A DNA stretch of 64,000 nt from positions 1 to 64,000 of the forward strand of contig NZ_CP101458.1 in NCBI RefSeq assembly GCF_024362525.1, given 5' to 3'. The DNA is from Natrononativus amylolyticus (GTDB lineage: Archaea; Halobacteriota; Halobacteria; Halobacteriales; Natrialbaceae). Under the pieces are notes generated by a model. The model had not been told where the DNA came from and searched no databases. It saw only the letters and a program-made list of their open reading frames with translations. Position numbers and translations under genes: made by a program. Position 1 is the stretch's first letter, and the number at the start of each line of letters is the position of its first letter. Of the stretch, positions 5,063-38,420 are shown in pieces.

Positions 5063-5082
5063 ACCCCTTCGTTTCGAGTGGA
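5063..5082 (-). promoter_or_regulatory. ORB-like motif beside tRNA-Gln
   Basis: On the minus strand this reads TCCACTCGAAACGAAGGGGT, a full match to the haloarchaeal origin recognition box core (TCCA-N2-CGAAACGAAGGGGT) bound by Orc1/Cdc6. It lies 60 bp upstream of the rhodanese start and 48 bp from the tRNA 3' end, about 28 kb from oriC1. The match is seen directly; binding is inference. Confidence 0.6.
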
Positions 5083-5129
5083 AATCGAGAGGCTGCGCTG
5101 GGAGGTTGCTCGAGTCGAAGTACGAGAAG

Positions 5130-5202
5130 TAGTCCCACCAGGATTCGAACCTGGGTCGAAGCCCCCAGAAGGCTTCAGGATTGGCCGCTACCCCATGGGA
5201 CT
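5130..5202 (-). tRNA. tRNA-Gln (anticodon CTG)
   Basis: The minus strand folds as a full cloverleaf: acceptor AGTCCCA pairs with TGGGACT, discriminator A at 5130, anticodon stem AAGCC/GGCTT with loop TTCTGGG (anticodon CTG, decodes CAG), and T-arm with GGTTCGAATCC. CCA is not encoded. No intron is seen. A likely box A (TCATAAAT on the minus strand, 5231-5238) lies about 30 bp upstream. Confidence 0.96.
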
Positions 5203-30036: not shown

Positions 30037-30125
30037 CAGACGAAAACGATCTGGAAGACGAGCAGGATCGACAGCAGCGTCGAGGCGCCGACGGTCGTGA
30101 GAACGATCTTGGTTGCAGTGCTCAT
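30036..30125 (-). CDS. 29-residue single-helix membrane microprotein
   Basis: ATG 30125 opens MSTATKIVLTTVGASTLLSI followed by a hydrophobic end LLVFQIVFV and TGA. One membrane helix covers almost the whole peptide. The TGA overlaps the ATG of the next gene (TGATG). A TATA-like ATTTAAGC on the minus strand at 30147-30154 is at leaderless spacing. Coupling, promoter and composition support a real gene. Function unknown. Confidence 0.7.
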   Translation of the reverse strand: MSTATKIVLTTVGASTLLSILLVFQIVFV

Positions 30126-30235
30126 ACTCCGTGGCTATCGGTCGGATCGCTTAAATCCATCCTTCCGCCCCCGCCGTACCGGGTTCGTCTGGCGCAGGCA
30201 GGAGGAGGCGCGAAGTGAGAGACGAGGCACTCGAG

Positions 30236-30358
30236 GTAGTGAGCCAACGGGAGAGTGCGGAGGTAGTGAGCCAACGGGAGAGTGCGGAGGTAGTGAGCCA
30301 ACGGGAGAGTGCGGAGGTAGTGAGCCAACGGGAGAGTGCGGAGGTAACGAGCCAACGG
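30236..30358. repeat. 27-bp minisatellite, four perfect copies plus a decayed fifth
   Basis: Unit begins GTAGTGAGCCAACGGGAGAG and ends TGCGGAG. Copies start at 30236, 30263, 30290 and 30317; a partial copy with changes starts at 30344. As 27 is a multiple of three the array stays open in several frames; in one plus frame it would encode VVSQRESAE repeats. No gene evidence accompanies it. Confidence 0.95.
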
Positions 30359-30496
30359 ACAATACGCACACCGGTTCGGTTGCGACCGGCGGGGACCGCA
30401 ACCGAACGAACTGCGACCAGGAGTACGGAAGCAGCCACTCTTCGTGTCGAGCCTAAAGTCAGGGGTTGAGTAAGGCAACAGGTAGTCTCGAGTGTG

Positions 30497-30518
30497 TTCC
30501 AGTGGAAACAGAAGGGGT
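30497..30518 (+). promoter_or_regulatory. ORB-like motif downstream of oapC
   Basis: TTCCAGTGGAAAC followed by A and GAAGGGGT: the haloarchaeal ORB core with one inserted base. It lies 130 bp past the oapC stop, about 2.2 kb left of the main origin region. Confidence 0.5.
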
Positions 30519-30649
30519 TCGGGCGGGCACAAAGAAGCGGCGCCGGCAACCGAGGATCGAAAGTCACCGTCACCGGCGACGGGCCCCGGGTGTCGTCGCA
30601 GTCGGCAACGGGGCCTCGAGCGATCCCCAAGTCGTCACGTGAGAGGAGC

Positions 30650-32883: not shown

Positions 32884-32910
32884 CCCCCACCCCTTCGTTT
32901 CGGGTGGAGA
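32884..32910 (-). promoter_or_regulatory. long ORB, left arm of oriC1
   Basis: On the minus strand TCCACCCGAAACGAAGGGGT followed by a G-run (GGGGG), i.e. the full ORB including the G-string. It points left and pairs in inverted orientation with 33203-33234 across the AT-rich core. Confidence 0.85.
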
Positions 32911-33202: not shown

Positions 33203-33234
33203 TCTCCACCTGAAACAAAGGGGTGGGGGGTGTC
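33203..33234 (+). promoter_or_regulatory. long ORB, right arm of oriC1
   Basis: TCCACCTGAAACAAAGGGGT, then a G-run (GGGGGG) and TGTC. One change from the core (CAAAG for CGAAG). Opposite in orientation to the ORB at 32884-32910. Confidence 0.85.
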
Positions 33235-33958: not shown

Positions 33959-33978
33959 TCCACACGAAACAAGGGGGT
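33959..33978 (+). promoter_or_regulatory. ORB-like motif immediately upstream of orc1
   Basis: TCCACACGAAACAAGGGGGT, two changes from the ORB core. It ends 12 bp before the orc1 start codon, so Orc1 bound here could repress its own gene. Confidence 0.65.
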
Positions 33979-33990
33979 TTCGAACAACGG

Positions 33991-35622
33991 ATGTCTGACG
34001 ATGAACTCGAGTCGGGGCAAACCTCCGACTCCGGCGCCGCTCGCGGGTTTGCAACGGACTTCGGGGAGAGCGACCTCTCCGAGGAGGAGTCGAACCAGGG
34101 ACTGTTCGACGACCTGCTCAGCGGGGAACCGATCTTCGAGAACAAGGAAGTGCTCCGGCCGTCGTACACGCCCCACGAGCTGCCCCATCGCAGCGACCAG
34201 ATCAACAAGATGGCGACGATCCTGGTCGCCGCGCTCCGAGGCGAGACGCCGTCGAACATCCTGATCTACGGGAAGACGGGAACCGGCAAGACCGCGAGCG
34301 CGAAGTTCGTGAGCAAGGAACTAGAAAGCACCTCCCAGAAGTACAGCGTCCCGTGCGACGTCGAGTACATCAACTGCGAGGTGACCGACACCCAGTACCG
34401 GGTGCTGGCACAGCTCGCCAACAAGTTCATCGAGGAGAACGAGGCGATGATCGACGAGCGGATCGCCTCCCTCGAGTCGCTCCTCGAGTCCCTCGAGGCC
34501 GACACACCGGCGGTCGCCGACGAGGGCGACTCTCCAGTCGAAACGGAGGGGTCTGCGACCACCTCCCGGCGTTCCGAAGCGGGCGCGACGAACGAAGCGG
34601 ACGAGACGCCGGCGGGCGATTCGACGGAGACGGACGACCCGGCGGCGGAACCCCACCCGCTCGCGGAGACGCCGTTCGATTCGGCCGAGGAGGTCAAAGC
34701 CCGGATCGAGTCGCTCGCGGCCGACCGCGAGAGCTTCGAGGAGGTTCCGATGACGGGCTGGCCGACCGACCGGGTGTACAGCGTCTTCTTTGACGCGGTC
34801 GACTACTCCGAGCGGGTGGTCGTCATTATGCTCGACGAGATCGACAAACTGGTCGAGAAGAGCGGCGACGACACCCTGTACAACCTCTCGCGGATGAACT
34901 CCGAACTCGAGAACTCGCGGGTGTCGATCATCGGCATCTCGAACGACCTCAAGTTCACCGATTTCCTCGACCCGCGCGTGAAGTCGAGCCTGGGCGAGGA
35001 GGAGATCGTCTTCCCGCCGTACGACGCGAACCAGCTCCGGGACATCCTCCAGCACCGCTCCGAAGTCGCGTTCAAGGAGGGCGCGCTCTCGGATGACGTG
35101 ATCCCGCTGTGTGCCGCCTTCGCCGCCCAGGAACACGGCGACGCACGGCGCGCACTCGATCTGCTGCGAACGGCGGGCGAACTCGCAGAGCGCAGCCAGT
35201 CCGAGACCATCGTCGAGGACCACGTTCGACAGGCCCAGGACAAGATCGAACTCGATCGGGTCGTCGAAGTGGTGCGGACCCTCCCCACCCAGAGCAAGCT
35301 CGTCCTGTTTTCGATCATCCTCCTCGAGAAAAACGGCGTCCACAGCATCAACACCGGCGAGGTGTTCAACATCTACAAACGCCTCTGCGAGGAGATCGAC
35401 GCCGACGTCCTCACGCAGCGGCGGGTCACGGACCTCATCAGCGAACTCGACATGCTGGGGATCGTCAACGCAGTCGTCGTCTCGAAAGGCCGGTACGGCC
35501 GAACCAAGGAGATCAGCCTCTCGGTACCGATCGAGGAGACGGAGGTCGTCTTGCTCTCCGACTCGCGGCTCTCGGATATCGACGACGTCCAGCCGTTCGT
35601 CCAGGCACGCTTCGAAAACTGA
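33991..35622 (+). CDS. orc1: Orc1/Cdc6 replication initiator
   Basis: 543 residues; AAA+ origin-binding ATPase that recognises ORBs and loads MCM. Walker A IYGKTGTGKTASAKF (92-106), Walker B VVIMLDEIDKL (about 273), sensor 1 IIGISNDLKF, arginine and sensor 2 region EHGDARRALDLLRTAGE, and a C-terminal winged helix (INTGEVFNIYKRLCEEID, VTDLISELDMLGIVN). Between the Walker boxes, about residues 165-250 form an acidic, low-complexity insertion not needed for the fold; that insertion contains an ORB-like DNA sequence (34533-34552). Longer than usual Orc1/Cdc6 (about 400) because of it. Confidence 0.95.
   Translation: MSDDELESGQTSDSGAARGFATDFGESDLSEEESNQGLFDDLLSGEPIFENKEVLRPSYTPHELPHRSDQINKMATILVAALRGETPSNILIYGKTGTGKTASAKFVSKELESTSQKYSVPCDVEYINCEVTDTQYRVLAQLANKFIEENEAMIDERIASLESLLESLEADTPAVADEGDSPVETEGSATTSRRSEAGATNEADETPAGDSTETDDPAAEPHPLAETPFDSAEEVKARIESLAADRESFEEVPMTGWPTDRVYSVFFDAVDYSERVVVIMLDEIDKLVEKSGDDTLYNLSRMNSELENSRVSIIGISNDLKFTDFLDPRVKSSLGEEEIVFPPYDANQLRDILQHRSEVAFKEGALSDDVIPLCAAFAAQEHGDARRALDLLRTAGELAERSQSETIVEDHVRQAQDKIELDRVVEVVRTLPTQSKLVLFSIILLEKNGVHSINTGEVFNIYKRLCEEIDADVLTQRRVTDLISELDMLGIVNAVVVSKGRYGRTKEISLSVPIEETEVVLLSDSRLSDIDDVQPFVQARFEN
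34533..34552 (+). promoter_or_regulatory. ORB-like motif inside orc1 coding sequence
   Basis: TCCAGTCGAAACGGAGGGGT, one base from the perfect motif seen twice at 37.1 kb. It encodes residues about 181-188 (SPVETEGS) of the acidic insertion of Orc1. Confidence 0.55.
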
Positions 35623-36827: not shown

Positions 36828-38420
36828 GTGCCACTCGAGGGGCCCGCACGGATCGTCAGCGAACTCACGAGCCGCGGCTACAACGTCGAGCGTGAGGCCG
36901 TGACCCTCATCGCGTCGGCGGACGACCCCGCGCGCGCACTCGAGCGCGTCGTCGACGCTGCGCCGGCGGAAACGCTCGTGGTGACGACCGACCACGTCCG
37001 GTCGGTGCTCTCGACGGCTGAGCCGGCGGCGGACCCGACCGCAGCCGACGGTGCCGGCGCTGCTACCGGGAGGTCCCCAACACCGTCTTCCACCGATTCA
37101 GACCCCTTCGTTTCGACTGGAGAACCGGATCGGAATCCCACGGACGACGGCGGGTCCGCTCCAGTCGAAACGAAGGGGTCTTCGACGGGGTTCGAACGCA
37201 CCAGTGATCCGACCCTGCGCTCGCTCGAGATCGCGAACGACATGACCGGCGAGAGCACGGGAACCGGGGAGTACAGGGACTTCGTGACGGTGTTTCGCGA
37301 TCGCCTCGAGCGCCTCGGATCGAAGCTCCGGGGCCGGGTGAACCACCGGCCCGCGACGGCGATCCAGAGCATGCCCGGCGGTGCGGAGGCGGGAATGGTC
37401 GGGCTGGTCAACGACGTCCGTTCGACGGCCAGCGGCCACTGGCTGGTCGAACTCGAGGACGCCACCGGCACCTTCCCGTGGTTGGTGATGAAAGACCGCG
37501 AGTACGCGGACCTCGTCGGCGAACTGCTCTGCGACGAGGTGCTGGCGATGGAGGGAACGCTGTCGGACGACGCGGGGATCGCGTTCACGGACGCGATGTA
37601 CTTCCCCGACGTTCCCCGGACCCACGAGCCCTCGACCGCGGATCGCCACGTTCAGGCCGCGCTCATCAGCGACGTTCACGTCGGCAGCCAGGAGTTCATG
37701 CGCGACGCCTGGAACGCGTTCACCGACTGGCTCCACACCGAAACCGCCCAGCACGTCGAGTACCTGCTGATCGCGGGCGACATGGTCGAGGGCGTCGGCG
37801 TCTACCCCAACCAGGACGAGGAGCTCGACGTCGTCGACATCTACGAGCAGTACGAGGTGTTCAACGAGTATCTGAAACAGGTTCCCGGCGACATGGAGAT
37901 CGTGATGATCCCGGGGAACCACGACGCGGTCCGACTCGCAGAACCCCAGCCGGGGTTCGACGAGGAGCTCCGGTCGATCATGTCCGCCCACGACGCCCGC
38001 ATCGTGAGCAACCCCTCGACGGTGACCCTCGAGGGCGTCTCGGTGCTCATGTACCACGGCGTCTCCCTCGACGAGGTCATCGCGGAGCTTCCCGAGGAGA
38101 AAGCCAGCTACGACGAACCTCACAAGGCGATGTACCACCTGCTGAAAAAGCGCCACGTCGCCCCGCAGTTCGGCGGCCACACCAGACTCGCACCCGAGGA
38201 ACGCGACTACCTCGTCATCGAGGACGTGCCGGACATCTTCCACACCGGTCACGTTCACAAACTCGGCTTCGGCAAGTACCACAACGTGCTCGCGATCAAC
38301 TCCGGCTGCTGGCAGTCCCAGACCGACTTCCAGAAGAGCGTCAACATCGACCCCGACTCGGGATACGCCCCGATCGTCGACCTCGATACGCTCGACGTAA
38401 CCGTCCAGAAGTTCAGCTAG
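36828..38420 (+). CDS. polD1: DNA polymerase D small subunit DP1 (exonuclease)
   Basis: 530 residues; GTG 36828 chosen because VPLEGPARIVSELTSRGYN is the conserved N-terminus. N-terminal helical domain (1-60), then a low-complexity linker (about 62-150) that carries two ORB-like DNA motifs, an OB-fold (about 150-260), and the Mre11-like phosphoesterase domain: ISDVHVGSQEF, IAGDMVEGVGVYP, MIPGNHDAVRLAEPQPG, YHGVSLDEVI and HTGHVHKLG. DP1 proofreads for the large subunit DP2, which is not in the window. Confidence 0.94.
   Translation: MPLEGPARIVSELTSRGYNVEREAVTLIASADDPARALERVVDAAPAETLVVTTDHVRSVLSTAEPAADPTAADGAGAATGRSPTPSSTDSDPFVSTGEPDRNPTDDGGSAPVETKGSSTGFERTSDPTLRSLEIANDMTGESTGTGEYRDFVTVFRDRLERLGSKLRGRVNHRPATAIQSMPGGAEAGMVGLVNDVRSTASGHWLVELEDATGTFPWLVMKDREYADLVGELLCDEVLAMEGTLSDDAGIAFTDAMYFPDVPRTHEPSTADRHVQAALISDVHVGSQEFMRDAWNAFTDWLHTETAQHVEYLLIAGDMVEGVGVYPNQDEELDVVDIYEQYEVFNEYLKQVPGDMEIVMIPGNHDAVRLAEPQPGFDEELRSIMSAHDARIVSNPSTVTLEGVSVLMYHGVSLDEVIAELPEEKASYDEPHKAMYHLLKKRHVAPQFGGHTRLAPEERDYLVIEDVPDIFHTGHVHKLGFGKYHNVLAINSGCWQSQTDFQKSVNIDPDSGYAPIVDLDTLDVTVQKFS
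37102..37121 (-). promoter_or_regulatory. ORB-like motif in polD1, minus orientation
   Basis: Minus strand reads TCCAGTCGAAACGAAGGGGT. It encodes residues about 92-98 (PFVSTGE) of the DP1 linker. First arm of an inverted pair with 37160-37179 (38 bp apart). Confidence 0.6.
37160..37179 (+). promoter_or_regulatory. ORB-like motif in polD1, plus orientation
   Basis: TCCAGTCGAAACGAAGGGGT, an exact inverted copy of 37102-37121, pointing away from it. It encodes about residues 111-118 (APVETKGS) of the DP1 linker. Confidence 0.6.

Follow-up and report, generated by a model that had tools for sequence, protein, structure and literature searches.

A conserved inverted pair of ORB-like sites inside the haloarchaeal DNA polymerase D small-subunit gene, a predicted Orc1-binding element near oriC1

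The window, a 64,000-nucleotide stretch of DNA from Natrononativus amylolyticus (contig NZ_CP101458.1, positions 1 to 64,000), contains in this order oriC1, the initiator gene orc1, a signal-peptidase-like gene on the minus strand and polD1 (Table 1). The gene between orc1 and polD1 was named from its SGSMEP-type motif, and a Pfam search of it gave no match. The start codon of polD1 is probably GTG, judging by the conserved VPLEG N-terminus of relatives, and the Pfam DNA_pol_E_B match covers DP1 residues 278-475. Some 275 bp into polD1, where the sequence links the N-terminal region to the phosphoesterase-type domain, lies an inverted pair of ORB-like sites. Elsewhere in the window, an ORF call at 30122-30532 (minus strand) carries the in-frame peptide repeat LPLAHYLRT in several copies, a sign of a small tandem repeat in the DNA.

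Table 1. Genes and ORB-like sites in the window.
Feature	Position	Strand	Remarks
ORB-like site near tRNA-Gln	5063..5082	-	single intergenic ORB, about 46 bp past the 3' end of tRNA-Gln(CTG)
tRNA-Gln(CTG)	5129-5202	-	
Left ORB of oriC1	32889..32908	-	extended G-string GGGGTGGGG
Right ORB of oriC1	33205..33224	+	TCCACCTGAAACAAAGGGGT, then GGGGG
ORB-like site upstream of orc1	33959..33978	+	TCCACACGAAACAAGGGGGT; directly upstream of the orc1 start codon
orc1/cdc6	33991..35622	+	initiator gene of oriC1; Pfam Cdc6_C, Cdc6_lid
ORB-like site within orc1	34533..34552	+	in coding sequence; encodes SPVETEGS
polD1	36828..38420	+	small subunit (DP1) of DNA polymerase D; Pfam DNA_pol_E_B
ORB-like site, left arm of pair	37102..37121	-	reads TCCAGTCGAAACGAAGGGGT on the minus strand; exact match
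Spacer between arms	37122..37159		38 bp, about 71% G+C, without AT-rich unwinding element
ORB-like site, right arm of pair	37160..37179	+	TCCAGTCGAAACGAAGGGGT; exact match

The first-pass annotation had described a perfect inverted motif pair with arms 38 bp apart in the DP1 linker, about 4 kb from oriC1. This description was confirmed: both arms matched exactly, the pair sits in the variable linker that precedes the DNA_pol_E_B domain, and its distance to the right-hand ORB of oriC1 is 3.9 kb. Read on the plus strand, the left arm encodes the peptide D-P-F-V-S-T-G, and the right arm encodes A-P-V-E-T-K-G-S. Both arms carry the dyad element TCCANNNGAAAC followed by the G-string RAGGGG, as a haloarchaeal oriC1-type ORB requires. 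With up to three mismatches allowed, TCCAGTCGAAACGAAGGGGT matched five times in the window against 0.00 expected from dinucleotide shuffles, and seven times in the whole 3.99-Mb genome, where the reversed control pattern had no match. The 13-mer core GAAACGAAGGGGT occurs exactly at four places in the genome (5063, 32889, 37102 and 37167), less than 33 kb from one another.

Several of the other ORB-like sites recur in related genomes. The site directly 5' of the orc1 start, which has an extra G (GAAACRAGGGGGT), is found at the same place in many relatives and is possibly an autoregulatory site. The site within the orc1 coding sequence is read in the same frame as the plus arm in polD1 and also occurs in orc1 of about ten relatives. 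The tRNA-Gln ORB is conserved, at the orthologous position, in ten or more further Natrialbaceae, although its distance to oriC1 ranges from about 20 to 108 kb; in a check on whether the presence of this ORB depends on closeness to oriC1, tRNA-Gln was located in only 12 of 49 genomes by the pattern used. Eight genomes have a single, orthologous ORB of variant sequence (often TCCATGCGAAACGAAGGGGT) in the intergenic region that separates nmd3 from an M48 peptidase gene, on the chromosome's oriC1 side. In the N. amylolyticus genome this nmd3 site is at position 2926462, about -83 kb across the start if the 2,976,992-base contig is circular. Another genome (G060:C1:3308347-3308704) has an inverted ORB pair with an oriC1-like spacing of 338 bp, about 157 kb from polD1, which is possibly a second oriC1-like origin.

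The chromosomal distribution of ORBs was followed by pattern searches of whole genomes. Among 22 Natrialbaceae genomes, all 97 placed matches to TCCANNNGAAACGRAGGGGT were no more than 195 kb from oriC1; one further match lies across a contig start and is close to oriC1 too if the 3,889,038-base contig is circular. Exact cores typically number two to nine per whole genome in the family. Outside that family, 27 genomes had 100 ORB 20-mers, 97 of them within 200 kb of polD1. The figures for both sets should be read as a strong trend and not as a formal probability, since the 27 genomes were picked for carrying the pair and genomes related to one another are not independent. A mobile or neutral repeat that chanced to sit in coding linkers, which the first-pass annotation had also considered, would explain the several near-identical copies in one genome. 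However, these copies are not scattered: they stand at a few orthologous places, are kept across families and are confined to the oriC1 side. This reading, to which we give almost no credence, was rejected on the grounds of orthology and chromosome distribution.

We gathered 80 polD1 loci from named haloarchaeal contigs. Most of them show a minus-strand ORB, a plus-strand ORB or both, always at the corresponding position of the linker. When both arms were strictly required and the gap between them could range freely from 20 to 50 bp, the pattern occurred in 115 of 391 Halobacteria genomes. These represent 37 of the 86 genera and belong to several families; the count is a lower bound as diverged or one-arm cases were left uncounted, and controls gave no match. 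The gap was 38 bp in almost all of the strict-pattern matches listed, and all 30 loci fetched from this search were polD1. These are raw counts from related and hence non-independent genomes, and they overstate the number of evolutionary events. The strict pair is missing from many genera, including most of three families (f2, f4 and f6), and some lineages retain a single arm. When GAAACGAAGGGG was fixed in both arms, an exact-pair search in the family found no genome except N. amylolyticus; such a search would give a misleading negative because most relatives vary at the GAAACGAAGGGG letters.

Seven loci (three of Haladaptatus, three of Halobellus and one of Natrarchaeobius) have polD1 split from orc1 by about 14-36 kb. 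Haladaptatus with polD1 away from orc1 has the plus ORB only, Halobellus in the same situation has weakened sites, and Natrarchaeobius AArcht7 has kept both arms with orc1 about 33 kb off and no longer adjacent. Retention of the pair is mixed in genomes with polD1 unlinked from orc1, where the two genes are still 14-36 kb apart or are on split contigs, and it favours neither control of the origin nor control of polD1.

The pair had been sought in the polD1 genes of relatives in order to see which is conserved, the DNA motif or the linker residues. The DNA motif is conserved across Halobacteria, and the residues drift at positions where the ORB itself is degenerate. The islands (63 and 71) were selected on their peptide pattern, which left codon choice free of preselection. 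Plus-arm Pro is encoded by CCA in 71/71 (14% in the linker background) and plus-arm Glu by GAA in 71/71 (background 36%). For the minus arm the figures are 47/47 GTT for Val (12%), 59/59 ACT for Thr (9%) and 57/57 GGA for Gly (19%). Gly is GGG in 67/69 in the polD1 islands, compared with 23% in the linker background. Third codon positions in the islands are as fixed as first and second positions, though rare codons are required. Residue changes occur mainly at ORB positions that are variable among oriC1 ORBs too: PVET, PLET, PPET and PHET correspond to ORB variants that are likewise present among the ORBs of oriC1, and when V is swapped for L, P, H or A, or K for E or G, the DNA mostly becomes another known ORB form. 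Judged by these codons, the polD1 islands are under selection on DNA.

The peptides DPSVSTG and PVETKGS are recognisable in most polD1 genes and always in the same frame, as would be expected if the conserved letters encoded a protein motif of the DP1 linker. All copies share one reading frame because of common descent, and a protein motif would leave synonymous positions free to vary and would not fix rare codons, nor would its residues vary just where the ORB consensus is loose. The codon data led us to reject this reading, which is barely credible. Selection for an mRNA hairpin is similarly improbable in the extreme. In the window the arms are perfectly complementary over 20 nt, but this is so only in the window among 56 genes. 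In these 56 genes each gene's own arms paired at 982 of 1120 positions, compared with 979.6 when arms were taken from other species (SD 3.8, p 0.31). A hairpin was rejected since there is no covariation between the arms.

What is conserved along with the two sites is the distance between them. Of 78 genes, 66 have 57 nt from the Pro codon of one arm to the Pro codon of the other (SD 6, with 7 distinct values overall). For 30 of the loci in this set, the underlying search admitted only gaps of 20-50 bp; where no such restriction applied, 57 nt was seen in 43 of 56 genes. The linker lengths before and after the pair take 30 and 19 distinct values, with SD of 85 and 44, respectively. The spacer is conserved in length and not in sequence. 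The fixed spacing suggests that both sites are read together.

By motif identity, the protein that reads them is likely Orc1. Like the ORB pair of haloarchaeal oriC1 (PMC3528665, PMC3936714), the polD1 pair consists of the same 20-bp motif in inverted orientation with G-strings outward. Unlike that pair, its interval is 38 bp in place of about 300 bp, and it has neither an AT-rich element nor an extended second G-tract. The oriC-type extension GGGGTGGGG was found in 0 of 52 polD1 ORBs, compared with 119 copies elsewhere, and the AT-rich unwinding region that is a hallmark of archaeal origins between inverted ORBs is missing from the polD1 pair. Because the second G-tract GGGGTGGGG and the AT-rich element are lacking, the polD1 ORBs look like binding sites and not like an origin.

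The same observations bear on whether the pair serves as an origin, cryptic or auxiliary, at which two Orc1 molecules load MCM, which we consider highly improbable. Two inverted ORBs with their G-strings outward, oriented as the ORBs of oriC1 are, would fit such an origin, but the absence of an AT-rich element between the arms and of the extended G-string from all 52 polD1 ORBs argues against it. In Haloarcula hispanica, mutations of the G-strings of oriC1 abolish plasmid replication, and the minimal oriC1 replicates on a plasmid without polD1 (PMC3936714). Orc1 on the pair could instead act on the host gene, as a roadblock or operator within polD1 that ties DP1 expression to the level of the initiator. 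The pair is in polD1 at every locus checked and stays there wholly or partly where orc1 is 14-36 kb away, and with ORB-like sites also before orc1 and between nmd3 and the M48 peptidase gene, transcriptional roles are conceivable. On the other hand, the pair lies some 275 bp into the gene, orc1 has coding sites of a similar kind, and ORBs are confined to the origin side in varied contexts and do not form a regulon of replication genes. Control of polD1 seems to us unlikely.

Bacterial parS sites are palindromic, are bound by ParB and are found in small number around the origin, some of them in coding sequence. The polD1 ORBs are like parS in being few, conserved and clustered at the origin, with some in coding sequence, and unlike parS in that they are not palindromic and no partner such as ParB has been shown for them. 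The origin-proximal ORBs might then be a parS-like array of the origin domain, on which Orc1 or another protein nucleates an organising or segregating structure. A few near-identical 20-mers, some of them coding, within about 200 kb around oriC1 and the fixed geometry of the pair are consistent with such an array, whereas the lack of palindromy and the identity of the motif with the established Orc1 site speak against it, and we regard it as very unlikely. To our knowledge there is no partner or loader protein for the ORB array. With slightly less doubt, still as a speculation, the array (polD1, orc1, tRNA-Gln and nmd3 sites) could be an origin-domain organiser or centromere-like element that is read by Orc1 and has the polD1 pair as its core. 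If so, an array read by Orc1 would couple the control of initiation with the positioning or segregation of the origin.

The pair, conserved at the DNA level, fixed in spacing, accompanied by origin-proximal ORBs and devoid of origin hallmarks, is in our assessment probably, with considerable room for doubt, an element to which Orc1 binds and through which oriC1 is restrained or tuned. It would represent two inverted sites for the oriC1-type Orc1/Cdc6 that lie within a permissive linker of polD1 and are kept for their DNA sequence. Orc1 would occupy both sites in fixed geometry, and no replication would start there because the second G-tract of the origin type and the AT-rich unwinding element are missing. 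Lying only 4 kb from oriC1, the sites would be duplicated moments after initiation. Together with the ORBs in orc1 and beside tRNA-Gln, the pair could then draw Orc1 off oriC1 and limit re-initiation; alternatively, these ORBs could hold Orc1 in an inactive complex with oriC1, to the same effect. A constant spacing of 57 nt goes beyond what titration by itself would demand and may point to a more ordered complex. An ordered Orc1 complex, perhaps touching oriC1, would account for the spacing. The first-pass annotation had proposed an auxiliary Orc1 site or a titration site; the conserved DNA, the locked third positions and the fixed spacing favour this proposal, whereas for its functional part we infer that Orc1 binds, as well as how and in which direction oriC1 is affected. 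A literature search for haloarchaeal Orc1 ChIP or Orc1 binding at such sites found none, with subscription papers mostly outside the search.

DnaA-box clusters outside oriC are present in bacteria other than E. coli. We know of no datA or DnaA-box site that is locked inside a replication polymerase gene. In E. coli itself, datA is a DnaA titration site outside oriC, according to its citation in PMC3936714. Like datA and the DnaA-box sites, the polD1 pair would be a set of non-origin initiator sites limiting or tuning initiation, and unlike it those sites use an unrelated initiator and box. A closer parallel in H. hispanica is oriC2D, in which ORBs outside the origin and without origin activity restrain oriC2, most likely through titration of Cdc6E as proposed from genetics; a construct with only two downstream ORBs had an intermediate effect and already lowered plasmid concentration (PMC3936714). 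Both oriC2D and the polD1 pair are initiator boxes outside the origin and near the initiator gene. The eleven boxes of oriC2D, however, are intergenic by oriC2-cdc6E, while here there are two, at fixed spacing, in the coding sequence of polD1 and next to oriC1. The pair shares with titration loci the closeness of non-origin boxes to the origin (3.9 kb from oriC1); it lacks their high-capacity box cluster and would be a small sink compared with the 11 ORBs of oriC2D.

The published survey of haloarchaeal ORBs covered intergenic regions beside orc/cdc6 genes (PMC3528665), and a survey limited to intergenic DNA overlooked conserved coding sites. Our literature search for ORBs in coding sequence or in polD1 found no earlier report, with subscription papers mostly outside its reach. 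Initiator sites outside origins are an established class, in which conserved pairs for oriC1 embedded in coding sequence seem to be a new type.

In the literature surveyed, titration as a means of keeping an origin from firing again has been put forward, on genetic grounds, only for oriC2 of one species. The polD1 pair and a few other origin-proximal ORBs provide a concrete candidate for the control of oriC1, and the pair would be a case of regulatory DNA constraining the protein linker in which it lies.
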